Positions 155-61,871 of a stretch of 61,871 bases of DNA are shown here, in pieces. The notes under the pieces are model-generated. The model was given only the letters and a program-made list of their open reading frames with translations. It was not told the origin of the DNA and did not search any database. The position numbers were made by a program, and so were the translations under genes. Origin of the DNA: a virus; the IMG/VR virus record IMGVR_UViG_3300042465_001631, positions 1-61,871 of that record; one strand, 5' to 3'. Numbering within the stretch: the first letter of the stretch is position 1; each line of letters opens with the position of its first letter.

Positions 155-406
155 ATGCAAGTTGAAAAATTACCGCAAGACGATTGGAAATTAGACAAAA
201 TTGAGTTAGAATTTAAATCTTATGGTGAAGACCAAGGAAAATACGTTGGTAAAATTCGTTTTCAAAATGGCGAATACGAAAGTTTTTCTTTTAAAATAAG
301 ACCTGATATGGCACAGCCTTATATTGAATTAATAGGTGCTGATATTGTTAAATGTGCTGAGTCGCTTGGAGCAAGATTGGCTGAGTCACTTGGATTAAAG
401 AAGTAG
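155..406 (+). CDS. Cassette gene, 83-residue protein of unknown function (copy 2)
   Basis: The start is the first ATG after the hairpin, 23 bases from the end of the GTTAGGGG box. The protein is small, soluble and acidic, with no signal peptide or membrane segment. It ends in an alanine/leucine-rich helix containing two near-repeats (AESLGARL and AESLGLKK). It is identical to the product of 59004-59255. I do not recognise the family. Duplication of the complete unit within one array is the notable feature. Confidence 0.8.
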   Translation: MQVEKLPQDDWKLDKIELEFKSYGEDQGKYVGKIRFQNGEYESFSFKIRPDMAQPYIELIGADIVKCAESLGARLAESLGLKK

Positions 407-431: not shown

Positions 432-562
432 CCCCTAACGATGGTGCTATACGAAGGAGGCGATTATTAGCACTAAAGTTGATGCGGAGTACAAAATTTG
501 AATATAGCAGAATGTTTCTGCGGAACACCGAACCGCCTCTTTTGTATAGCACGTGTTAGTGG
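432..562 (-). other. attC-like recombination site B
   Basis: Core boxes CCCCTAAC (432-439) and GTTAGTGG (555-562) enclose a stem: GTGCTATAC (444-452) pairs exactly with 544-552, and GAGGCG (457-462) with CGCCTC (534-539). The bases between these blocks pair through G:T wobbles only if the plus strand folds. Spacers are 4 bases (left) and 2 bases (right). The left box pairs with the head of the preceding gene unit (GTTAGGGG at 125-132), the right box with the tail of the following unit (CCACTAAC at 1590-1597). Confidence 0.78.
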
Positions 563-594: not shown

Positions 595-1584
595 ATGGAA
601 TTAAACAAAATATATCATAGTGATTGGATGAATAATAATCTACCTGATAAATCGGTGCAGTTGATTATTGCAGACCCGCCATACTACAAAGTAAAAGGAG
701 ATTTTGACTTTGTATGGAAAACCTTTGACGAGTACCTGCAAGATGTAGAACGCTGGGCAATAGAATGTAAAAGAGTTTTAGCAGATAATGGAACGCTTTA
801 TTGGTATGGAGATGCTAAAAATATTGCCTATGCTCAAATCATTTTTGATAAGCATTTTAACTTATTGAATAGTTTGGTATGGGAAAACACAAACGACCAT
901 AAGCAACAAATAAGATTTAATACCGATTTGCGAACATTTGCACCACTTACTGAAAGATTACTGATGTATGAGCAAAGAGGACAAAAGACTGGAGGAGAAT
1001 TGATATTTGAGCAATTTTTAAAGCCTAAAAATCCATTTTCTAAATACCTAAAAATTGAATTTAAAAACGCTGGATTAACAAATAGAGAAATTGCACAACT
1101 ATTCCCAAGTAGAACAGGCGGATTAACTGGATGTGTTTCTAATTGGTTAAATGGTGATAATGTAATAACAGAGGAGCAATACAATGTAATTAGAGAATAT
1201 TGCAATAACAAGTATCTGCAGAAGCCATACGAGGAACTAAAAGCCGAATACGAGGAACTAAAAGCCGAATATGAAGTGCTACGCAGACCGTTTAATAATG
1301 AACGATATTATGGTGATGTGATTAGAATACCAAATTATGAAACTGGAAACCACGAACACGACACGCCAAAACCCGAAAAGCTAACAAGGGAAATAATATT
1401 AATAAGTAGCAGACCAAACGACCTTATTTTAGTTCCTTTTGCTGGAAGTGGAACGGAGTGTGCAATGGCAATAAAAGAAAATAGAAACTTTTTAGGATTT
1501 GAAATAAACGAAAAACACGTTAATTATGGAAACAAACGAACTGACAATATTAAGGCACAACCGTCATTATTTGCAGTAACGTAG
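595..1584 (+). CDS. Cassette-borne DNA methyltransferase (N6-adenine/N4-cytosine, beta-like motif order)
   Basis: A 329-residue S-adenosylmethionine-dependent DNA methyltransferase. The catalytic motif IV DPPYY is at residues 27-31. The cofactor-binding motif FAGSGT is at 282-287, near the C-terminus and preceded by an HDTPKPEKL motif, so the order is IV before I as in beta-class enzymes. The middle region (about 140-205) contains a helix-turn-helix-like stretch and probably reads the target sequence. It is followed by a short heptad segment encoded by a tandem DNA repeat. No restriction endonuclease lies beside it, so it probably protects phage DNA from host restriction. The gene is one complete cassette unit, with GTTAGTGGC before and GCCACTAAC after it. 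Confidence 0.88.
   Translation: MELNKIYHSDWMNNNLPDKSVQLIIADPPYYKVKGDFDFVWKTFDEYLQDVERWAIECKRVLADNGTLYWYGDAKNIAYAQIIFDKHFNLLNSLVWENTNDHKQQIRFNTDLRTFAPLTERLLMYEQRGQKTGGELIFEQFLKPKNPFSKYLKIEFKNAGLTNREIAQLFPSRTGGLTGCVSNWLNGDNVITEEQYNVIREYCNNKYLQKPYEELKAEYEELKAEYEVLRRPFNNERYYGDVIRIPNYETGNHEHDTPKPEKLTREIILISSRPNDLILVPFAGSGTECAMAIKENRNFLGFEINEKHVNYGNKRTDNIKAQPSLFAVT
1228..1269 (+). repeat. Two perfect tandem 21-bp units inside the methyltransferase gene
   Basis: Bases 1228-1248 and 1249-1269 are identical. Each encodes the heptad YEELKAE (residues 212-218 and 219-225), followed by a diverged third partial unit. The in-frame heptads would form a short coiled coil between the putative recognition region and the C-terminal half. 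Copy-number change would keep frame. Confidence 0.9.
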
Positions 1585-1589
1585 CCTTG

Positions 1590-1597
1590 CCACTAAC
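1590..1597 (-). other. Terminal half-site of the cassette array
   Basis: CCACTAAC is the tail box of the methyltransferase unit and pairs with GTTAGTGG at 555-562. No stem or second box follows; instead phage-like sequence leads to the gene at 1630. Read on the minus strand, the junction is ...GGTTAGTAGGTAGTTAGTGG, so a second GTTAG lies 9 bases away. If the array has minus-strand polarity, this is its integration-proximal edge. Confidence 0.6.
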
Positions 1598-1629
1598 TAC
1601 CTACTAACCGATATAAATACAAATCTTTT

Positions 1630-1815: not shown

Positions 1816-4227
1816 ATGGAAGTAACTATTTTCAAAAATATAAAACAAACATCAACACCATTCTTTAAGACGATTGGTGTGATGCTTGATAGGATACAGA
1901 ACGGTGCCTCTAAAGACATCGTCGAAGGTATTCGCAACGAGAAGGATAAGTCCGCTCGTAATGCACTAAAACAACAGCTACCTGCGGTATGTTTCTCAGG
2001 TAAGTTTACAAAGCGTGAGGATAAGGCTATTTTAGAGCACTCAGGGTTCATTTGCCTAGACTTTGATGGTTATGCCACCGACAAAGAAATGAAGGCTGAT
2101 AAGGCTATAATTTCAAAGAATAAATATACCTATTCAGTATTTGTTTCCCCATCTGGGAATGGACTAAAGATAATTGTTAAGATACCAAGAGATATTGATA
2201 ACCATAAGAACTACTTCAACTCACTTGAGAAGCACTTCAACTCAAAATACTTTGATAAGACATCAAAGAACATCTCAAGGGTATGTTATGAGTCGTACGA
2301 TCCAGAGATTTATGTGAACACCTCAAGCGAGTTGTGGAACACATTATCAGAACACGAGTATGTAGAGATGGATAGAGTAGCCTCTAAACCAACCATCCCA
2401 ATCACTAACGAGAACAAGATTATCGAAATATTGATGAAGTGGTGGACTAGAAAGTACGGACTCGTTGATGGTGAGCGTAATAACAATGTATTTATCTTAG
2501 CCTCAGCGTTTAATGACTATGGCGTAAGCAAGTCATTAGCAGAATATGTAATGGGACAGTTCGACAGTCAAGACTTCCCAATGCAAGAGATCAGGACTAT
2601 TATCGACTCAGCGTACAGACAGACACACAAGTTCGGCACAAAGTTCTATGAAGACGATGAAAAGCTAACACAAGTTCGTCAGAAGATTAAACGTGGAGTC
2701 TCTAAGAAAGACATCAAGTCAGAGTTAATGGGATTAAACATATCGGAGAATGCAATTGACGATGTGATTGATACAATCGACAGAGACGAGGCAAGTCAGA
2801 AGTACTGGAGCAAGTCGGATAAGGGAGCTATAAGCATTATTCACTACCTATTTAGAGAGTTCTTAGAGGACAACGGATTCTTTAAGTATATGCCGAATGG
2901 GGGTAAGAGTTACATCTTCGTAAGGGTAACAAATAACCTCATCGACCACACGTCGGAGGACGAGATTAAAGACTTTGTACTTAACCACTTACAAACTATA
3001 GATGACTTATCAGTTTACAACTACTTTGCAGACAAGACTAGGTTCTTTAAGGAGGACTTTTTATCTCTACTATCTTCTGTTGATGTATATTTTATGGAGG
3101 ATGATAAGGACAATGCGTACCTTTACTATAGGAATTGTGCTGTACGTATAGATAAGGACAACATCGACATCATCGACTATATTGACCTTGGTGGTTACAT
3201 ATGGGCAGATCAAGTTATCGACAGAGATTTTAAGATTTGTGAGATTACAGACTGTGACTTCAAGACATTTATAGCAAACGTATCAAACGATGAACAGACT
3301 CGCATTGACTCTCTTGAGAGCACGATTGGATTCCTTATGCATGGATATAAGAATTTATCTTACTGTCCTGCGGTCATTCTAAATGACGAGGTGATTACAG
3401 ATAACCCAGAGGGCGGAACTGGTAAGGGGTTATTTACTAACGCCATTTCTCAGATGAAGAAGTTAGCCTTTATAGATGGTAAGAGTGTGAACTTCGATAG
3501 TTCATTCCCATACCAGACCGTATCAGTTGATACACAGGTACTTGCGTTTGATGACGTTAAGAAACACTTCAACTTCGAGAGGTTATTCAGTGTGATCACA
3601 GAGGGTATAACTCTGGAGAGAAAGAATAAGGATGCAATGCATATTCCATTTAACAAGTCTCCTAAGATAATTATCACAACAAACTACGCCATCAAGGGTA
3701 AGGGTAATTCATTCGAGAGACGTAAGTGGGAGCTTGAGTTCAAGCAGTTCTACACCAAAGAGTTTACTCCACTAGTTGAGTTTGGTAGGTTATTATTTAC
3801 TGAATGGGACTCAGGCGAATGGTGCAAGTTTGATAACTACATGATTAAGAGTTTACAAGCATACTTAACGACTGGTTTAGTTAAGAGTGAATTTGTCAAT
3901 CTTAAGATACGTAAGTTGTCAGCTGATACGTGCCACGAGTTCATTGAGTGGGTTGGACTGATGGATGATAAGCCAACGATTGCACTAGGAGAGGTACTAT
4001 ATAAACAGGATCTATACCTTGACTTTATCCAAGACAATCCAGACTTTGCACCAAAGGCTAAGATGACCATATCACGTACTATATTTTATAAGTGGTTAAC
4101 ATCTTATGGACTATTTGTTACTGGAGTTTTACCTTCAGAAGGTCGTAATAACATAGGTAGATGGATCAAGTTCAAGGACGCAAGTGGTAAGGACGAAGAA
4201 GAAACTAATGATGAGCTCAGATTTTAA
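1816..4227 (+). CDS. Replicative primase-helicase (BT4734-like N-terminus, ATPase C-terminal half)
   Basis: An 803-residue protein. The N-terminal part (about 1-190) has the FSGKFTKREDKAILEHSG and CLDFDGY segments and the FVSPSGNGLKIIVK motif typical of the BT4734-like primase domain of Bacteroidota elements. The C-terminal half holds an ATPase/helicase domain with Walker A GGTGKG around residues 533-538 and a downstream LAFDDVKK Walker B-like segment, as in phage and plasmid D5/SF3-type helicases. It probably unwinds and primes the phage origin. It heads the replication operon, and its last codons overlap the next gene. The start ATG lies 3 bases after the preceding stop. Confidence 0.85.
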   Translation: MEVTIFKNIKQTSTPFFKTIGVMLDRIQNGASKDIVEGIRNEKDKSARNALKQQLPAVCFSGKFTKREDKAILEHSGFICLDFDGYATDKEMKADKAIISKNKYTYSVFVSPSGNGLKIIVKIPRDIDNHKNYFNSLEKHFNSKYFDKTSKNISRVCYESYDPEIYVNTSSELWNTLSEHEYVEMDRVASKPTIPITNENKIIEILMKWWTRKYGLVDGERNNNVFILASAFNDYGVSKSLAEYVMGQFDSQDFPMQEIRTIIDSAYRQTHKFGTKFYEDDEKLTQVRQKIKRGVSKKDIKSELMGLNISENAIDDVIDTIDRDEASQKYWSKSDKGAISIIHYLFREFLEDNGFFKYMPNGGKSYIFVRVTNNLIDHTSEDEIKDFVLNHLQTIDDLSVYNYFADKTRFFKEDFLSLLSSVDVYFMEDDKDNAYLYYRNCAVRIDKDNIDIIDYIDLGGYIWADQVIDRDFKICEITDCDFKTFIANVSNDEQTRIDSLESTIGFLMHGYKNLSYCPAVILNDEVITDNPEGGTGKGLFTNAISQMKKLAFIDGKSVNFDSSFPYQTVSVDTQVLAFDDVKKHFNFERLFSVITEGITLERKNKDAMHIPFNKSPKIIITTNYAIKGKGNSFERRKWELEFKQFYTKEFTPLVEFGRLLFTEWDSGEWCKFDNYMIKSLQAYLTTGLVKSEFVNLKIRKLSADTCHEFIEWVGLMDDKPTIALGEVLYKQDLYLDFIQDNPDFAPKAKMTISRTIFYKWLTSYGLFVTGVLPSEGRNNIGRWIKFKDASGKDEEETNDELRF

Positions 4228-34109: not shown

Positions 34110-36362
34110 TTATCTTATTATTTCGCTACGTGTTCCGTTATTATTATACTTTGCAAAGTTAAAGATTATTTTCGATTCTTTTTTAACTTGCAGATAAACA
34201 TTCTTTTGGTTAGCCATTATAGCTAATCCTGAACTAATTGCAGCATCAAACTTAGTTCTATTGTTAATATCAAACTTAGCCCACTCTTCAATTGTTCTTG
34301 TAAAGTACATCGAGCCCATCTCATCGGAGTCTCTATACGTGCCCTCTAAATCAAGTCCTACATACTTCTCAATATAAGACTCAATTGCCGCTGCGTGAGA
34401 CTGCTTAACATCTTCAGATGAGTTAGGAATACCACCAAGCTCTTTCTCTGTCTTAGAAAGGTTAGTATAGTGCTTGTCTGGTCTATTCATAGAGAATCCT
34501 CTATAGCCTCTATTCTTAAAATGGTATAAAAGTCTTGGTTTGTTATTCTCAACTAAAATAGGCATTCCATAAAATATACACGCCATCAGTACTTCTTCAA
34601 AGAATATCTCTGCCGTCTGTGGTCTTGCAATATACTCTAAAAAGAATTGATTACTTGGTGCATTGTCCATATTAAACTTAGTAAGTCCATGGAGAGATCC
34701 GTTAGATCCGCCTCCACCAACAGTACCTGATATATCGTACGGATCACATCCAAATGCACCAATGTGGTCATTTCCTGGATGCTTCATTCCGTTCTTGTGT
34801 ATTACATTGTTCTGAAGATCCTTCTCAGGAATCCATGATACATTAAATCTACCTCTTGGATCTGGAGTCCAAACTACCTTAGTATCTTTCGCTCCATTTA
34901 ACCAACTAAAAGATCCTCGTGTAAGTACCCTATCTCTAATTAAAGAGTCATTATAGTCGATCTGCTGATAGATCTTTGTTAAATTGAATATTGATGACTT
35001 ACTCTCATCTCTGAAGGCGTGAGACTCTGTTCTTGAGAACTGTCTATAGAACTCATTAAGTGCATCAGCATCGTTCTTCAAGGATGCAACCTCATTCTCC
35101 CAGTAATCAATAGCACCGTTAGAAATCATCTGACCATCAATACCAAGTACTGGTTTCTCAGGCTTTCTAAATACTGGCATCCCATATCTATCAATATATC
35201 CCTCAAAGTTCCATTCCATTGGAATATAAAGAGAATACATACCAGATTTGGTTTGACCATTGGCGTTACGAGTTTTTACATTTGATTCTTCGTATAATTT
35301 TTTGAAGTTAGCACCTCCCTTTTCAAGTGCGTTAGGTGTTGAACCCATCATACACTTTCCGATAATTTTAGATCCTAACCTAAGACATGTCTTGGTTACA
35401 CGCCAGTTATTTAAAATATTATCGGGCTTGATCCATTTACCAGACTCGTCATGTACGAGAAGAAGTAATTTCTCACCATCATAGCTATTGTCCGCTGTAT
35501 TCTTCCAGTCGATTGTAGTATCAAGACCTTTTATATCAGAATTATTATCTGTACTTTCGTACATATTCTTCTTAGTAATCTTAGCCGCAGGAACTCTAAA
35601 TGCAAGTTCTGTCTTTGGCTTATCCATACCATCCTGAATAGGTTTAAAGAAGAACGGATAGTTATTTATAATTGGAACTACCTTGTTGGTAAACATTGTC
35701 TTAGCATCGTTACCAGTCTTTGATAATATTCCAAGTCTTGCATCCTTTGCAAGTGTTCCTGTATTAGATAGTTCATTTGAACCCATGAACGAGAATCCAG
35801 AACGTCTAATCTTTAAGTAAACCATTCCAAAGGAACGATTATCTGCCTTGCAAGCCTCCCAAAATATAAAGTATATTCTATTAGCCTCACGATAATCAGG
35901 TAGTCCAACATCTATCTTAGTCCACTGGAGGTACATATAATGAGATCCAGTGATGTACGTCTCTACTCCATTATTCATGAAGAAGAATCCGTGCTCTCTT
36001 CTGTCAAACTCTCCCTCTATATAATCAACCCACTCATCCTTAAAATTCTTAGGCATAGTGTGCCAGTTGAATATAGTCTTAATATTACTAAGTTCTTTAG
36101 GATATTCAGATGGTTCCCAGTACTGATTTTCTTTTTTATTGTCACGTTTATATACTAAATTTGTTACAGAAGGGAGTGCAACTAATAGCCCACTTATATT
36201 GTAAATATCACCGATAGTTCCATCCTTAGATATAACCACCATATCATACTTTTCGTTATAACCATACTCCCAGCCCTTGTTTTTGTTTTTATTAACAATA
36301 ACCGTCTTAGGAATGTGGTCGTGAACTATAGTATATAATTTATTTTGATCGTCGTTCTGCAA
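34110..36362 (-). CDS. Terminase large subunit
   Basis: A 750-residue packaging motor. The ATPase part shows a Walker A-like RRSGFSF (186-192), which lacks the usual GK[ST], a clear Walker B LLLLVHDE (299-306) and a coupling-like GSTP motif (340-343). The C-terminal nuclease domain has GAFGCDPYDI with the catalytic-type Asp540. The longest frame starts at a TTG overlapping the upstream gene; no upstream ATG exists and the first internal ATG (residue 41) would remove conserved sequence, so the TTG is likely real. It acts with the portal to fill the head. Confidence 0.85.
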   Translation of the reverse strand: MQNDDQNKLYTIVHDHIPKTVIVNKNKNKGWEYGYNEKYDMVVISKDGTIGDIYNISGLLVALPSVTNLVYKRDNKKENQYWEPSEYPKELSNIKTIFNWHTMPKNFKDEWVDYIEGEFDRREHGFFFMNNGVETYITGSHYMYLQWTKIDVGLPDYREANRIYFIFWEACKADNRSFGMVYLKIRRSGFSFMGSNELSNTGTLAKDARLGILSKTGNDAKTMFTNKVVPIINNYPFFFKPIQDGMDKPKTELAFRVPAAKITKKNMYESTDNNSDIKGLDTTIDWKNTADNSYDGEKLLLLVHDESGKWIKPDNILNNWRVTKTCLRLGSKIIGKCMMGSTPNALEKGGANFKKLYEESNVKTRNANGQTKSGMYSLYIPMEWNFEGYIDRYGMPVFRKPEKPVLGIDGQMISNGAIDYWENEVASLKNDADALNEFYRQFSRTESHAFRDESKSSIFNLTKIYQQIDYNDSLIRDRVLTRGSFSWLNGAKDTKVVWTPDPRGRFNVSWIPEKDLQNNVIHKNGMKHPGNDHIGAFGCDPYDISGTVGGGGSNGSLHGLTKFNMDNAPSNQFFLEYIARPQTAEIFFEEVLMACIFYGMPILVENNKPRLLYHFKNRGYRGFSMNRPDKHYTNLSKTEKELGGIPNSSEDVKQSHAAAIESYIEKYVGLDLEGTYRDSDEMGSMYFTRTIEEWAKFDINNRTKFDAAISSGLAIMANQKNVYLQVKKESKIIFNFAKYNNNGTRSEIIR

Positions 36363-41937: not shown

Positions 41938-42121
41938 TCTTCTTAGTTAATCGTTCAACAATATTCGTAGCTCCTTCTATTCCAATGTAAACAGTAGCTA
42001 TAATAACCCAGTCAGAAGAAGTAAGACTTCCTGAGAATAATCCACCACAAGCCGTTAGAAATACTAATAGCTTGCGTGAAATCCACTTACTTAAAATTAT
42101 ATCTATCTGTTCTTTACTCAT
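41930..42121 (-). CDS. Small membrane protein, holin candidate
   Basis: A 63-residue protein with two probable membrane helices (KLLVFLTACGGLFSGSL; DWVIIATVYIGIEGATNI) and a basic C-terminus. It directly precedes the XhlA-like gene and endolysin, overlapping by 8 bases. A two-helix holin is the natural guess; the pairing with the neighbouring coiled-coil membrane protein resembles XhlA/XhlB modules. Confidence 0.65.
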   Translation of the reverse strand: MSKEQIDIILSKWISRKLLVFLTACGGLFSGSLTSSDWVIIATVYIGIEGATNIVERLTKKNG

Positions 42122-57403: not shown

Positions 57404-57473
57404 AGCTACGTGGTATAGTGGTATTATATTGAGTTTTTCCTCATTGAGGCAGGTTCGATTCCTGTCGTAGTGC
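57404..57473 (+). tRNA. tRNA-like gene with an atypical anticodon arm
   Basis: Seventy bases that fold as a tRNA. The acceptor stem (57405-57410 with 57466-57471) has one G:T pair. The D-arm has AGTGGT in the loop, and the T-arm is GCAGG-TTCGATT-CCTGT with one G:T closing pair. The anticodon stem (TTGAG with CTCAT) leaves a loop of six bases (TTTTTC) instead of seven, so the anticodon is unclear: TTT (Lys) or TTC (Glu) could be read. It may be a degenerate tRNA or one with an unusual loop. CCA is not encoded. Confidence 0.6.
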
Positions 57474-57902: not shown

Positions 57903-58109
57903 ATGAAAAACACAATAAATTATTTAGGACACGAGTTTGAATATAGATTCAGTTATTCACCAGGAAGACCAGCAACTCACGAAGATCCAGAAGAATATGA
58001 AGAGTTTGATATTTACGACATTACATTAAATGGTATAGACGCAACTGACTTATTAGACAGACAAATTGATGATTTTGAAGGAGAAGTAATTAGATACCTT
58101 AAAGACTAA
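57903..58109 (+). CDS. Small acidic protein, unknown function
   Basis: A 68-residue acidic protein (MKNTINYLGHEFEYRFSYSP), with GRPATHEDPEEYEEFDIYDI in the middle and a short acidic helix at the end. It lies after the terminator, so it may have its own promoter or use read-through. The next tiny gene starts in a TAATG overlap. Confidence 0.6.
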   Translation: MKNTINYLGHEFEYRFSYSPGRPATHEDPEEYEEFDIYDITLNGIDATDLLDRQIDDFEGEVIRYLKD

Positions 58110-58207
58110 TGGAAAATATAGCAGCATTTTTAGTAGGATGTTTCTTCGTCCTATTTATATGGGTAAATACTTGGATCTATGAACAGTGGAATAATAAATT
58201 GAAGTAA
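58109..58207 (+). CDS. 32-residue membrane protein at the edge of the cassette array
   Basis: A tiny protein with one membrane segment (IAAFLVGCFFVLFIWVN). Its stop codon TAA is the start of TAACGG, the core of the left-most site of the cassette array. The array may have inserted right at this stop. Confidence 0.5.
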   Translation: MENIAAFLVGCFFVLFIWVNTWIYEQWNNKLK

Positions 58208-58226
58208 CGGATGGTGTTACCGCTAG
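58205..58226 (-). other. Stem-less remnant site at the left edge of the array
   Basis: TAACGGATGGTGTTACC contains both conserved ends (TAACG and TGTTA) with only five bases between. A complete site has about 80-120 bases there. The hairpin seems to have been deleted, or this is a minimal target. Confidence 0.5.
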
Positions 58227-58276
58227 TTGTGGGTTTTTACCGAAAAATTAATTATAAATACTAAATACAAAAAAAT

Positions 58277-58810
58277 ATGGGATGTGATATACACAGTTTT
58301 GCCGAAATAAAAAGAAACGGTAAATGGGAAAAAGTAGGAGAACATTTTTCGTTAGGAGAATGGGAAAAAGAATATTATAAAAAAGAAAAAAACGACAGTC
58401 CTTTTGATTGGAGAAGTTATTCAATGTTTGCATTTTTAGCTGATGTTAGAAATTATGACCATTGCGAACCAATAAGCGAACCAAAAGGAATACCCGAAGA
58501 TGTTTGTGACGAAATCAAAAGCGAATATGATGATTGGGAAAGTGACGCACATTCATCGTCTTACTTGACACTAAAAGAACTTTTAGATTTTGATTACGAT
58601 AAAGTGTTTTGGAACAGAAGAATTAATAGAACTACGTATAATGAAAATGGTGGTAGTTATACTAACGGAGCGTCATTAGCAGAAGAAGGAGAAGGAACTA
58701 ATGTAACGTATAGAGAAAATCTAGGAGAATTTTTCTTTATTCATTTGAAAGAATTGGAAGAATTAGGAAATCCTGATGAAGTCAGAATAGTTTTTTGGTT
58801 CGACAATTAA
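58277..58810 (+). CDS. Cassette gene, MGCDIH-type protein of unknown function
   Basis: A 177-residue acidic protein beginning MGCDIHSFAEIKRNGKWEKV. Proteins starting MGCDIH are frequent in phages and mobile elements, with no known activity. The strongly conserved start (Cys, Asp, His close together) may bind metal. The region SPFDWRSYSMFAFLADVRNY, then a segment GASLAEEGEGTNVTYRENLG, is present. The unit's tail box GCATCTAAC does not pair with its head, so this unit is rearranged. Confidence 0.78.
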   Translation: MGCDIHSFAEIKRNGKWEKVGEHFSLGEWEKEYYKKEKNDSPFDWRSYSMFAFLADVRNYDHCEPISEPKGIPEDVCDEIKSEYDDWESDAHSSSYLTLKELLDFDYDKVFWNRRINRTTYNENGGSYTNGASLAEEGEGTNVTYRENLGEFFFIHLKELEELGNPDEVRIVFWFDN

Positions 58811-58849
58811 CTAAATTTCATTAAGAACCGCTAATGTAGTAATTAGCAT

Positions 58850-58981
58850 CTAACGGCTGCGGGTAGCATTGCAGAGCGGGATTTGAAACCGCTACACTAT
58901 CCACCGCTACAAAAAGATATTGAAAGCAGTAAAGTTAAATATGCCGTAATACCCCGCTTTGCTGCTACCCGTTGTTAGGGG
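58850..58981 (-). other. attC-like recombination site A, copy 1
   Basis: Identical to 1-132. Core boxes CTAAC (58850-58854) and GTTAGGGG (58974-58981) flank the stem. The bases before the left box (gcat) differ from those before copy 2 (tactg), as expected when each tail belongs to a different preceding unit. Confidence 0.76.
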
Positions 58982-59003
58982 CTGGTATTAATAAATAAAC
59001 AAA

Positions 59004-59255
59004 ATGCAAGTTGAAAAATTACCGCAAGACGATTGGAAATTAGACAAAATTGAGTTAGAATTTAAATCTTATGGTGAAGACCAAGGAAAATACGTTGGTA
59101 AAATTCGTTTTCAAAATGGCGAATACGAAAGTTTTTCTTTTAAAATAAGACCTGATATGGCACAGCCTTATATTGAATTAATAGGTGCTGATATTGTTAA
59201 ATGTGCTGAGTCGCTTGGAGCAAGATTGGCTGAGTCACTTGGATTAAAGAAGTAG
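59004..59255 (+). CDS. Cassette gene, 83-residue protein (copy 1)
   Basis: Identical to the product of 155-406. The protein is acidic and soluble and has no recognised domain. Complete identity at DNA level of gene and hairpin indicates a recent duplication or re-insertion. Confidence 0.8.
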   Translation: MQVEKLPQDDWKLDKIELEFKSYGEDQGKYVGKIRFQNGEYESFSFKIRPDMAQPYIELIGADIVKCAESLGARLAESLGLKK

Positions 59256-59280
59256 TAAAATCGGGGCGAGGTTATACTTG

Positions 59281-59316
59281 CCCCTAACGGTATCTCGCTT
59301 TGTGTCAGTGGCGGAT
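59281..59316 (-). other. Stem-less, degenerate cassette site
   Basis: CCCCTAACG is intact, but only about 13 bases later comes TGTCAGTGG, apparently TGTTAG with one change. No stem can form. The next unit's tail (GTTTGCTAAC at 59910-59919) has no partner at its head. The site is probably inactive, which would lock the two adjacent units together. Confidence 0.6.
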
Positions 59317-59358
59317 TAAAAAAGACTGACTTTCCGATTAATAACTAAACATACAAAA

Positions 59359-59907
59359 ATGCAAGAAACATTAAATTTAGACCAAAACCCGCCATTGCAC
59401 AAAACTAGTGTTAGCAAATCGGTTCCGAAAATTAAAACTTATGTGCTAACAGTTTCAGAATTTTTCCCTAAAACGCACAATAAATCAGGATTACCAACAG
59501 GATTTATTGATAAAATCGGAAGCAAAATTAAAAAGCACACCATTCGTGGAAATTACGAATTATGGAAAAAAAGAATTGAAGAAATACAAAAAGGAAATGC
59601 TGTTTTATCAATTCGTTATTGGCTTGGAAAACCTTATAATTCCAAGCAAAAAGAAGTTCATGTTTTAGATAAATATTCTGGAATTGGAGTTCAAAAATTA
59701 ACTTTTGAAGAGATGATTATGACTTGCGAAGATGTTTTAGAAACAAAATCAAAAGTAGGACTGCATATTTGGAAACCAAATTTTTCAAATATTAAAACTC
59801 TAGCGAAAAATGACGGACTTGAATTTGAAGATTTTAAAGAATGGTTTAAAGGTTATGATTTAAACGAACCAATGGCAATAGTTCATTTTACCGATGAACG
59901 TTATTAA
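59359..59907 (+). CDS. Cassette gene, ASCH/PUA-like protein
   Basis: A 182-residue protein. The central part (IKKHTIRGNYELWKKRIEEI, then QKGNAVLSIRYWLGKPYNSK and GIGVQKLTF) has the order of ASCH domains: HTIR, a charged helix, a beta strand with LSIR and KPY. ASCH-type proteins can bind or cleave RNA. The match is by pattern, so RNA-related activity is inferred. The gene lies in the unit that lost its hairpin. There is no neighbour that would form a toxin-antitoxin pair. Confidence 0.6.
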   Translation: MQETLNLDQNPPLHKTSVSKSVPKIKTYVLTVSEFFPKTHNKSGLPTGFIDKIGSKIKKHTIRGNYELWKKRIEEIQKGNAVLSIRYWLGKPYNSKQKEVHVLDKYSGIGVQKLTFEEMIMTCEDVLETKSKVGLHIWKPNFSNIKTLAKNDGLEFEDFKEWFKGYDLNEPMAIVHFTDERY

Positions 59908-59909
59908 CT

Positions 59910-59993
59910 GTTTGCTAACGTTCCCACGATAGGGGCTGTTTGCCTATGCGGTTGCGTAAATTCGGCAAATAGACATTATCGTGTGTTAGCACC
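59910..59993 (-). other. attC-like recombination site E
   Basis: Left box GTTTGCTAAC (59910-59919) and right box GTTAGCACC (59985-59993). The stem pairs CACGATA (59925-59931) with TATCGTG (59977-59983), and TGTTTGCC (59937-59944) with GGCAAATA (59964-59971) with one G:T. Unpaired segments lie between the two stem blocks, as in attC sites. The right box pairs with the tail GGTGCTAAC at 60193-60201. Confidence 0.8.
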
Positions 59994-60040
59994 AGTAGCG
60001 GATTAATTAAACAAAAATATTAACTTAAAACAAAATAAAT

Positions 60041-60187
60041 ATGCCACCATTAAAAGAATACAGATTTGAGGATATGATGAACTCAAATGTACAAGTAGTA
60101 ATTAAATCATACAGCTTTACACAGGCTTATGAAATTTTGGTAATGATAACTAAACACCCTGCGGATTTTAAATGTACGAGTTTGTAG
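60041..60187 (+). CDS. Cassette gene, 48-residue protein
   Basis: A short frame (MPPLKEYRFEDMMNSNVQVV) that fills the unit between sites E and F. The product looks helical and strand-mixed (IKSYSFTQAYEILVMI) and soluble. No family recognised. Site placement supports this as the cargo of the unit, 48 bases after the head box. Confidence 0.6.
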   Translation: MPPLKEYRFEDMMNSNVQVVIKSYSFTQAYEILVMITKHPADFKCTSL

Positions 60188-60192
60188 CTATT

Positions 60193-60331
60193 GGTGCTAA
60201 CGTACGTTGAGCATTGTTGTAGTTGTGGATTAGGGCTGCCAAATTATCGATTAAACACTAATACAACCAAGTACAAAAACCAATTATTAATTAAGCCAAA
60301 TGCCACAATTGCCACAACGCATTGTTATATG
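60193..60331 (-). other. attC-like recombination site F
   Basis: Left box GGTGCTAAC (60193-60201) and right box GTTATATG (60324-60331). The stem is imperfect: TACGTTGAGCATTGT on the left aligns with the reverse complement of the CCACAATTGCCACAACGCA region (60303-60321). The right box pairs with the tail CATATAAC at 60627-60634, with 12 of 13 extended bases complementary. Confidence 0.7.
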
Positions 60332-60354
60332 ATGGCTTTTTATTCACACAAATT

Positions 60355-60621
60355 ATGAAAGATTTTAAACAATTCAGAAGAAGTCAAATTGCAGAAATTA
60401 GAGAAGTAACAGAAGTAGATATTAATGTATTTAAGAATCACGGATTTATATATATATCAGAATATCTATTTGGTTTTAATATATCAATTTCCGATGCAGA
60501 TAAAAATAACGGAAGCCCTAAAATTGGCGATATGATTGCAAGAAATCCAAAAGACTACTCTGACCAATGGTTAATAGCTGAACAATATTTCAAAGATAAT
60601 TTTGAACAGTTAGTTGAGTAA
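60355..60621 (+). CDS. Cassette gene, 88-residue protein of unknown function
   Basis: A protein starting MKDFKQFRRSQIAEIREVTE, with a beta-rich C-terminal part (YLFGFNISISDADK) and GDMIARNPKDYSDQWLIAEQ. This last motif (ARNPKD..DQWL) is common in phage proteins of unknown role. I chose the ATG at 60355; the longer frame from 60322 begins in the site. Also known from phages outside arrays. Confidence 0.68.
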   Translation: MKDFKQFRRSQIAEIREVTEVDINVFKNHGFIYISEYLFGFNISISDADKNNGSPKIGDMIARNPKDYSDQWLIAEQYFKDNFEQLVE

Positions 60622-60626
60622 GCTAT

Positions 60627-60720
60627 CATATAACGGAAAAGCTTGTAGCTGTATGCCAAGAAAAACGTGAATCTAAAGAAAATAGTCGTAGCATATAGCT
60701 ACAAGCGTGTGTTAGGGTGC
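60627..60720 (-). other. attC-like recombination site G
   Basis: Left box CATATAAC (60627-60634) and right box GTTAGGGTGC (60711-60720). The stem is almost perfect: GCTTGTAGCTGTATGC (60641-60656) with 60691-60706, one G:T. The right box pairs with the tail GCACCCTAAC at 61413-61422. Confidence 0.82.
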
Positions 60721-60749
60721 GTAGTGGGTAATTAAAAATAAAAGTTATT

Positions 60750-61421
60750 ATGAAAAAGAATGTTTTAGAATTATTTGCAGGATCCCGCTCAATAGGAAAT
60801 AAAGCCGAGCAATTAGGAATGAATGTTTTTAGCGTAGATTGGACACCATACGAAAAAATAGATTTATCAATTGATATTGAATTATTGACTAAAGACCAAG
60901 TCCCATTTATTCCTGATGTTGTATGGGCAAGTCCTGATTGCACAACTTATACGATTGCCGCAATATCACATCATAGAAATGGAACAGAACCTAAAAGCGA
61001 TTATGCTTTAAAATGTGATAATGTAAATAAGCACTGGCTAGGCTTAATAAATGAATGGTTAATCATTAATCCTAAAATGGTATTCTTTATTGAAAATCCT
61101 CGTGGAATGATGCGAAAAATGCCGTTTATGAAAGGATTACAAAGAACTACTGTATGGTATTGTACTTACGGAGATTCGAGAGCAAAACCAACTGACATCT
61201 GGAGCAATAATATACAATCAATTTTTAATCAAAACGGATGGAATCCAAGAGCTGAATGTTTTAACGGTAATAAAAAATGCCAACACGAAAGCGCACCGAG
61301 AGGATCAAAAACAGGGACACAAGGAAAAAAAGGAAGTTACAACCGTTCTAAAATACCTGAATTATTATGCGAGGATGTGCTAAATTCAATTATGAATGAT
61401 AATCGTAGCTATGCACCCTAA
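60750..61421 (+). CDS. Cassette-borne C5-cytosine DNA methyltransferase
   Basis: A 223-residue protein with the C5-methyltransferase signature: motif I LELFAGSRSIG (6-16), the catalytic Cys64 in ASPDCTTYT (a variant of the PC motif), and motif VI FIENPRG (113-119). It is shorter than typical restriction-modification enzymes, as in phage orphan methyltransferases, with a small target-recognition region. Its stop codon lies inside the tail box of its unit (GCACCCTAAC). No restriction enzyme is near, so it probably protects phage DNA. Confidence 0.82.
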   Translation: MKKNVLELFAGSRSIGNKAEQLGMNVFSVDWTPYEKIDLSIDIELLTKDQVPFIPDVVWASPDCTTYTIAAISHHRNGTEPKSDYALKCDNVNKHWLGLINEWLIINPKMVFFIENPRGMMRKMPFMKGLQRTTVWYCTYGDSRAKPTDIWSNNIQSIFNQNGWNPRAECFNGNKKCQHESAPRGSKTGTQGKKGSYNRSKIPELLCEDVLNSIMNDNRSYAP

Positions 61422-61550
61422 CGGCGGATGCTACACGATGGCTGGGAAAAGCACACACCCAAACTTCGGATAATGACTGATTAAAAAAGTACAAACTGAA
61501 CTTTAAATTTAAAAATTAACCCAACTATTGTATAGCGTATGTTAGCAGTA
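61413..61550 (-). other. attC-like recombination site H
   Basis: Left box GCACCCTAAC (61413-61422) and right box GTTAGCAGTA (61541-61550). The stem pairs GCTACACGATGGCTGGG (61430-61446) with 61520-61536, including four non-Watson-Crick positions (two G:T in plus-strand folding). The right box pairs with the tail TACTGCTAAC at 61740-61749, 10 of 10. Confidence 0.78.
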
Positions 61551-61570
61551 GTTATAATACAGAATTTGTT

Positions 61571-61738
61571 ATGAAAGCACTATGCTTAATTATTTGGATG
61601 ATTATTTCATTATTATTTGTTTGCAGTATCATTGGATTGGTAATGTTTATACCTAAAGACAATTGGCAAAATCAAGAAAACACACCATCAACTTGGTATT
61701 CTATTGGTAAAAAATTGTTGAACAGTGTGGTTGAATAA
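61571..61738 (+). CDS. Cassette gene, 55-residue membrane protein
   Basis: A small protein with an N-terminal membrane segment (CLIIWMIISLLFVCSIIGLV) and a polar tail. It lies in the last unit before the circle junction. Expression may be low or inducible. No recognised family. Similar small membrane proteins are common integron cassette cargo. Confidence 0.6.
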   Translation: MKALCLIIWMIISLLFVCSIIGLVMFIPKDNWQNQENTPSTWYSIGKKLLNSVVE

Positions 61739-61744
61739 TTACTG

Positions 61745-61871
61745 CTAACGGCTGCGGGTAGCATTGCAGAGCGGGATTTGAAACCGCTACACTATCCACC
61801 GCTACAAAAAGATATTGAAAGCAGTAAAGTTAAATATGCCGTAATACCCCGCTTTGCTGCTACCCGTTGTT
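61745..61871. repeat. 127-bp terminal direct repeat (identical to 1-127), assembly overlap
   Basis: The end of the window repeats the start for exactly 127 bases, ending at the same base as position 127 in site A. An overlap of this length equals a common assembler k-mer, so it most likely reflects closure of a circular genome and not a biological repeat. It lies inside the repeated site A, where the graph would be ambiguous. Confidence 0.9.

Follow-up and report, generated by a model that had tools for sequence, protein, structure and literature searches.

A probable phage-borne integron-like system of new layout, represented by its recombinase-less form in a flavobacterial podovirus contig

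Introduction

Integrons are usually treated as bacterial devices that are sometimes picked up by phages. The stretch of DNA analyzed here, IMG/VR virus record IMGVR_UViG_3300042465_001631 (61,871 nt; the window), was read as a flavobacterial podovirus contig. It carries an array of nine small plus-strand genes and eight attC-like hairpins, which fills positions 58205-61744 and, across the contig ends, 1-1597. The locus raises the question whether this is a bacterial integron that strayed into a phage or a system of the phages themselves. An earlier model-made description of the letters alone (the sequence-only reading) had proposed an integron array inside a phage. The cassettes were found to be real, but the array does not look like an ordinary strayed integron: its exchange point lies at an upstream AAC, its units are composed of a hairpin followed by a gene, its end gene is phage-restricted, and its relatives have a XerA-like recombinase. 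The preferred reading, to which a probability of about 0.8 is given, is a phage-borne integron-like system of new layout, with the window as a recombinase-less form that is probably served in trans.

Canonical integrons recombine their cassettes at the downstream box (R′), with the crossover in G|TTRRRY, and strongly favor the bottom strand of the hairpin (PMC9892861; PMC6393395). Qi et al. (2023) found 17 clusters of attC sites lacking integron integrases (CALINs) in 10,705 phage genomes, observed function with IntI1 for five of the six phage attC sites they tested, and described methyltransferases and divergent attC directions in phage P12002L (PMC9892861). The sequence-only reading had considered phages to be unusual carriers; this view had to be given up, because many flavobacterial phages, including cultured isolates, were found to have arrays of this kind.

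Results

Hairpins and head-tail complementarity

The hairpins of the array carry attC-like paired R and L boxes, and their structure rather than their sequence is conserved. Two earlier hairpin scores discriminated poorly and were therefore replaced. A covariance model (CM) was built from 35 hairpins of other phages, taken only from arrays that end at a tyrosine recombinase gene (recombinase-type arrays, see below). In the window this model picked exactly eight hairpins, with E-values from 8e-18 to 8e-5, and the next match had an E-value of 0.21. They are listed here together with a remnant at the left end.

58205-58234, plus strand: decayed first hairpin (attC0 remnant), left end of the array; compared with L059:4687-4814
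58851-58977, plus strand: attC-like hairpin 1 (CM E 1.4e-9; fold)
59285-59413, plus strand: attC-like hairpin 2 (CM E 8e-18)
59916-59988, plus strand: attC-like hairpin 3 (CM E 8.1e-5)
60198-60327, plus strand: attC-like hairpin 4 (CM E 4.9e-14)
60631-60714, plus strand: attC-like hairpin 5 (CM E 3.5e-5)
61419-61544, plus strand: attC-like hairpin 6 (CM E 2.4e-14)
61746-61871 and 2-128 (contig start), plus strand: attC-like hairpin 7 (CM E 1.4e-9); the first copy lies in the 127-nt terminal repeat 61745-61871
436-558, plus strand: attC-like hairpin 8 (CM E 1.6e-8)

Compensatory changes were present in 18 of the 24 base pairs of the model (229 cells versus 80 in shuffles; 89% paired). In 1.24 Mb of dinucleotide shuffles all scores of an architecture scan stayed below 14, while five window hairpins reached at least 16. 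A scan of genome contigs with window hairpin sequence yielded no match. Rfam contains no attC family, and the Rfam scan of the window found only a tRNA-like element (57404-57473, 37.5 bits), which lies to the left of the array and of the gene for the single-stranded DNA-binding protein (SSB) and has no normal anticodon (ARAGORN 'tt').

The boxes vary between units, and nevertheless the head and tail boxes of six units had been proposed to be reverse complements. Complementarity was confirmed in all eight testable units, in which 10, 10, 11, 11, 11, 11, 10, and 10 of the first 12 positions were complementary; with the duplicated unit excluded, only 1 of 5040 permutations was equally good. As the sequence-only reading had concluded, this complementarity points to circular forms of the cassettes. 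A lack of attC-like structures and of complementarity above chance, the outcome named beforehand as speaking against the proposal, was thus not observed. The proposed count of seven plus two units, each with a gene and a hairpin, was confirmed for the nine genes and had to be corrected to eight hairpins. The first unit (58277-58810) has no matching head, and the hairpin preceding it is decayed. The last unit (595-1584) has a tail box that is not followed by a hairpin; this is where the array genuinely ends and no sign of a defect.

Genome comparisons place the exchange point at an upstream AAC

Unit boundaries could be read from related phages with different cassettes. The genome of FPSV-D35 equals that of FPSV-D15 plus exactly 390 nt, i.e., one hairpin-plus-gene unit, which is flanked by TAACG and adjoins o1630, the fixed gene at the right array end; to the left of the insertion at least 8,000 nt are identical. 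The Flavobacterium psychrophilum phages have a constant right flank and differ in their last cassettes. Phages 6H and 23T contain one unit twice, internally and adjoining o1630, and the last 6H copy matches the D15 unit without any difference over 378 nt. Compared with phage 2A, D15 has about 930 nt extra between units that are contiguous in 2A. In the window, one and the same 440-nt sequence is present as unit 2 (58850-59289) and as unit 8 (1-440); both copies likewise consist of a hairpin and a gene (plus tail) and are followed by different hairpins. Taken together, D15/D35, 6H/23T, and the window duplicate place the exchange point at the AAC of the upstream (R″) box, and by these genome comparisons the units are hairpin-plus-gene modules bounded there. 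Crossover at R′ with units of gene followed by attC was not observed. The longest open reading frame (ORF) was on the strand of the recombinase or o1630 gene in 178 of the 180 cassettes of related arrays that allowed a decision, and on the opposite strand in two; cassette genes pointing away from an attI site were thus not the rule found here.

A phage-restricted gene marks the array end

The right end of the array is composed of three elements.

1586-1597, plus strand: tail box of the last cassette (CTTGCCACTAAC), complementary to the head at 555
1598-1629, plus strand: conserved leader, putative attI-like insertion site; after the tail AAC, TAYTNGCTAACCGMTATAAAT... extends to the o1630 start codon
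1630-1812, plus strand: o1630, 60 aa, PHROG_25647; probable ribbon-helix-helix (RHH) protein, ends with -SDCPF

The o1630 gene was found in 14 viral loci with differing gene orders. Within the fetched sequence, hairpins were present upstream of it in all loci but L087 and L091, in which the contig end is close upstream. The junctions consist of a variable tail ending with AAC and the conserved o1630 leader, which is of the TAYTNGCTAACCGMTATAAAT type in most o1630-type phages. Tail and last head are complementary over 9-15 nt in every locus where that head could be identified, which was not the case in L088. Arrays of unrelated phages end at this gene, those of cultured F. psychrophilum phages (Unahavirus) among them; of the cultured phages, Polaribacter phage P12002S has the gene as well. 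It was not found in plasmids, and a strict pattern scan of 84,980 species genomes gave no match either; as judged from these searches it is a phage-restricted gene.

An AlphaFold2 model of o1630 (predicted local distance difference test score 82) has two helices. The best PDB matches were mostly RHH proteins (CopG, Arc, ParD), with weak E-values of 0.85 or worse, and the match to DUF6290 had an E-value of 0.002. The model suggests that o1630 is probably an RHH DNA-binding protein. Its C-terminus -SDCPF resembles the acidic -DxPF tips of SSB proteins, and the SSB of the window phage ends with -DILPF; o1630 might contact SSB-binding partners.

Hairpin arrays without o1630 nearby were also observed elsewhere in phage genomes (L004, 7795-9241; L069, 5586-6617; L080, 182-4039), and the one in L080 directly precedes a terminase-like gene.

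Complete relatives have a XerA-like recombinase

One o1630-type phage, L100, additionally has a tyrosine recombinase of 268 aa, relatives of which were found in 77 viral loci. Hairpins with a score of at least 15 numbered 231 in 500 kb upstream of these genes versus one in 686 kb downstream and four on the other strand. In 60 of the 77 loci a hairpin is present within 2 kb upstream, and 10 of the remaining loci have less than 600 nt of upstream sequence. In about 40 recombinase-type loci the tail AAC is situated 36-53 nt before the recombinase start, mostly at 51-53 nt and otherwise at 36 or 43 nt. A single terminase model matched 12 of 30 recombinase-type contigs, so that only a part of them is thereby confirmed as phage.

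The catalytic residues R133, K158, H218, R221, H244, and Y253 are kept. From K158 to H218 there are 60 residues, compared with about 106 in IntI1, which leaves no room for the IntI-specific insertion. Scores against the IntI model TIGR02249 were 92-157 bits (cut-off 265), and the enzymes were not identified as IntI. The best matches were XerA models, although the scores were below every NCBIfam cut-off (129-195 bits against NF040815, cut-off 220). The recombinases of L088 and L099 (398 and 432 aa) were set aside because by size and family score they resemble ordinary phage integrases, and the 401-aa Unahavirus integrase was treated likewise.

Like the Unahavirus genomes, those of the Polaribacter Freya phages are from cultured phages. 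Outside the region before the integrase gene, Freya_1, 5, 8, and 10 are identical at 41,963 of 41,963 nt, and they differ only by whole cassettes. Freya_1 represents the empty site (TTTACAAC|ACCCCTATAAC), Freya_5 has 1,744 nt of cassettes before the integrase, Freya_10 has the Freya_5 cassettes and 3,198 nt adjoining the integrase, and Freya_8 lacks one internal piece of 902 nt. Every joint is at an AAC. The integrase shares 34% identity with the L100-type enzyme. The Freya genomes were reported to be 44.0-48.9 kb in size with one integrase, and the word "integron" is absent from the main text of that article (Bartlau et al., PMC8776804). In the same study the five Polaribacter Danklef isolates (47.2-48.2 kb) vary in size as the Freya phages do, and cassette differences are likely in them as well. 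Phages Freya_1 to Freya_10 offer ready-made test material. A canonical CALIN with a truncated last hairpin had been considered for the window, and it was overturned by the same array end in a dozen phage loci, by D15/D35, and by the Freya phages.

Linkage of the array to the phage genome

The window encodes a large terminase subunit, virion and tail-fibre proteins, an SSB, an exonuclease, and a VirE-like primase. The primase is 62% identical to that of the uncultured podovirus MW202828 and 41% identical to a part of the primase of Flavobacterium elemo podoviruses. The array is bracketed by the phage gene 58109-58207 and by o1630; the features around it are as follows.

57903-58109, plus strand: left flank phage gene, 68 aa, 79% identical in L059/L097
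58109-58207, plus strand: phage gene, 32 aa; its stop codon TAA forms the first R″-like box TAACGG
58850-59289, plus strand: duplicated unit (hairpin 1, U2 gene, tail box), identical to 1-440
1816-4227, plus strand: primase/VirE-like protein, right flank, PHROG_28855

The last 127 nt of the window are identical to its first 127 nt (= 58850-58976), and the contig starts and stops within the 440-nt repeat. An overlap of exactly 127 nt, a common k-mer size of the assembler SPAdes, indicates that the contig ends lie in this repeat, and thus the linkage of 59290-61744 depends on its resolution. In contrast, 58205-58850 and 441-1597 are connected to phage DNA through unique sequence. Independent support for the phage linkage came from sequence comparison with a relative from a separate metagenome (L059/L097), in which a different array is present between the same flanking genes (57532 gene 86%, 57903 gene 79%, 1630 gene 61%, and primase 95% identity). 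The full hairpin of L059 begins at the point matching the TAA stop of the 58109-58207 gene. Both the phage-like nature of the flanking genes and the expected occurrence of alternative cassettes at the same position in related phages were thus verified. The SSB and 57903 genes yielded few relatives when used as queries.

An 869-aa ORF at 46102-48711 matches terminase/DnaC-like ATPase families with its first half and a family named chaperonin GroEL with its second half; the window has a separate large terminase gene at 34110-36362.

Discussion

A model for cassette exchange and the points against it

The cassette would be a small circle with one gene and one hairpin, and a tyrosine recombinase would recognize a single DNA strand folded into this hairpin. 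The exchange would take place between the AAC in the upstream box and the one at the leader of the gene that is fixed at the right array end, which is o1630 in the window and the XerA-like recombinase gene in the complete form. Insertion would add a hairpin-plus-gene unit beside the fixed gene, and the reverse reaction would remove, move, or duplicate units. The o1630 protein would probably bind the leader, as a regulator or as an accessory factor of recombination. As all cassette genes point toward the insertion end, they are probably transcribed from phage promoters on the left.

Several observations weigh against the proposed phage-borne system. A PF00589 search found no tyrosine recombinase and hence no intI in cis in the window, nor was one found in most o1630-type records, P12002S among them, or in P12002L, so that the enzyme acting on the window array has to be deduced. 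The boundaries, i.e., the joint positions, imply a strand opposite to the canonical bottom strand, unlike the bulges, which, where one-sided, are in the upstream arm in 14 cases versus 4, the arm expected for canonical bottom-strand use. The first unit and the first hairpin are decayed. Lastly, cassette U3 and a cassette of the recombinase-type phage locus L139 (1340-1854) share 94.4% identity over 515 nt but neither of the flanking hairpins, which differ. Genes and hairpins must therefore reassort over time, and transfer of hairpin-plus-gene units alone is insufficient; such reassortment would be expected if either box was sometimes used. At the sequence level the U3 identity also points to exchange between the recombinase-type and the o1630-type forms.

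Compared with the complete phage system, the window has the same hairpin family and a tail box at the leader of a fixed gene, and o1630 occupies the slot of the XerA-like recombinase. Without a recombinase of its own, the array is most likely remodeled in trans. The enzyme rather likely comes from a complete-type phage, either co-infecting or resident as a prophage; a host IntI or Xer protein is a less likely source.

Alternative explanations

The window fits the definition of a CALIN, at least two attC sites within a few kb and no intI nearby, and the array could be a CALIN as understood by Qi et al. (2023), composed of bacterial integron cassettes that were captured by a phage and are moved by a host IntI in trans. 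The absence of a recombinase and the attC-like R and L boxes are in accord with this explanation, as is the recombination of phage attC sites, one of P12002L included, with attI1 in the presence of IntI1 (PMC9892861). The units, however, end at the upstream AAC instead of G|TTRRRY, the end gene is missing from plasmids and species genomes within the scope of the searches described above, and relatives have a non-IntI recombinase at exactly that slot, which makes capture of an ordinary array rather improbable.

Ordinary homologous or RecT-type recombination between hairpins would not require a site-specific recombinase at all. Hairpins within one array can be alike, identical units such as U2 and U8 could recombine homologously, and the Freya phages encode RecT. 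Yet at the junctions of Freya_1/5/8/10 and D15/D35 no more than 3-5 nt (AAC to TAACG) are in common, which is not enough for homologous exchange, and head-tail complementarity in mutually differing units requires a hairpin-specific step; this route is very unlikely. That the array is an assembly chimera of a phage and a host integron might be suspected from the contig ends in the 440-nt repeat with their overlap of k-mer size, but is hardly credible at all, because unique sequence ties both array ends to phage genes, L059 has an array between the same genes in another metagenome, and cultured complete phage genomes share the organization.

Comparison with known systems

Like the window, the phage CALINs of P12002L, TJE1, and PH101 have attC-like sites, small genes, methyltransferases, and no intI nearby; unlike here, they were interpreted as components of ordinary integrons on which IntI1 acts at R′ (PMC9892861). 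The main text of that article does not contain a fixed end gene, an upstream-AAC boundary, a hairpin-plus-gene unit, a XerA-like recombinase, or the Flavobacterium and Freya cases, and relative to it the novelty is the layout. Canonical integrons (class 1, Vibrio chromosomal) also have hairpin attC cassettes, an array beside the recombinase gene, and recombinase-proximal insertion. However, IntI has an extra domain that the phage recombinase lacks, the genes point away from attI instead of toward the insertion site, and the unit is gene plus attC, cut at R′ with bottom-strand use, whereas in the phage system the cut would be at R″. Treponema-type integrons with inverted intI (PMC3607928) share the location of cassette genes and recombinase gene on the same strand, but there intI points toward attI and the genes away from it, while in the phages the recombinase points away from the site and the genes toward it. 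XerA-like recombinases (NF040815; PDB 4a8e, 5hxy) are the best match of the phage enzyme and have the same catalytic residues; the phage enzyme differs by its score below the NF040815 cut-off and its genetic linkage to hairpin cassette arrays. No report of this system was found in the open-access literature, preprints not covered, and it may have been described elsewhere.

It is tempting to go further and to propose, at slightly better than even odds, a distinct integron class in phages of Flavobacteriia and of other hosts, possibly jumbo phages. It would have a recombinase of the XerA lineage, its own attI-like leader, hairpin cassettes oriented opposite to those of all described integrons, and a widespread recombinase-less, RHH-anchored form living off the complete form, and it would be a viral rather than a bacterial platform of evolvability. 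The system gives viruses a one-at-a-time trade of small genes, often DNA methyltransferase genes, and the non-IntI recombinase that apparently handles hairpin sites offers a handle on the evolution of strand choice in hairpin recombination.

Cassette cargo

The cassette genes of the window are the following.

58277-58810, plus strand: U1, 177 aa, PHROG_10141, unknown function, widespread in phages
59004-59255, plus strand: U2, 83 aa, no family
59410-59919, plus strand: U3 cassette (ORF 59359-59907), PHROG_8581; homology starts within the cassette
60041-60187, plus strand: U4, 48 aa, no family
60355-60621, plus strand: U5, no family
60750-61421, plus strand: U6, DNA methyltransferase, PHROG_757 (E 6e-26)
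61571-61738, plus strand: U7, 55 aa, hydrophobic N-terminal part
155-406, plus strand: U8, identical copy of U2
595-1584, plus strand: U9, N6/N4 DNA methyltransferase, PF01555 (E 9e-40)

Most of the 146 non-redundant cassette proteins of related arrays have no Pfam match. DNA methyltransferases are the largest assigned group; eight match PF01555 and others belong to the C5, Dam, D12, and Mom families. The window array has two such cassettes (U6 and U9). A cargo rich in methyltransferases suggests that evasion of host restriction is a plausible use of the cassettes.

Related recombinases on plasmids

Relatives of the phage recombinase were also encountered on plasmids. In the Flagellimonas plasmid NZ_CP092416 (L202, 3910-6819) a XerA relative with 42% identity has two attC-like hairpins upstream, which are located around a gene of the dihydrofolate reductase family, and erm(F) is directly before xerA; this is perhaps the relic of a similar platform in bacteria. 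Near-palindromic hairpins that score on both strands are present at three places downstream of the XerA gene of the Chryseobacterium plasmid NZ_CP041688 (L201, 6955-11572). In plasmid pHH1107 (L207, 5064-7085) the recombinase gene tpnF, the product of which is 45% identical to the phage recombinase, is located beside tet(X3), and the mobility of tet(X) might be linked to this phage recombinase family.

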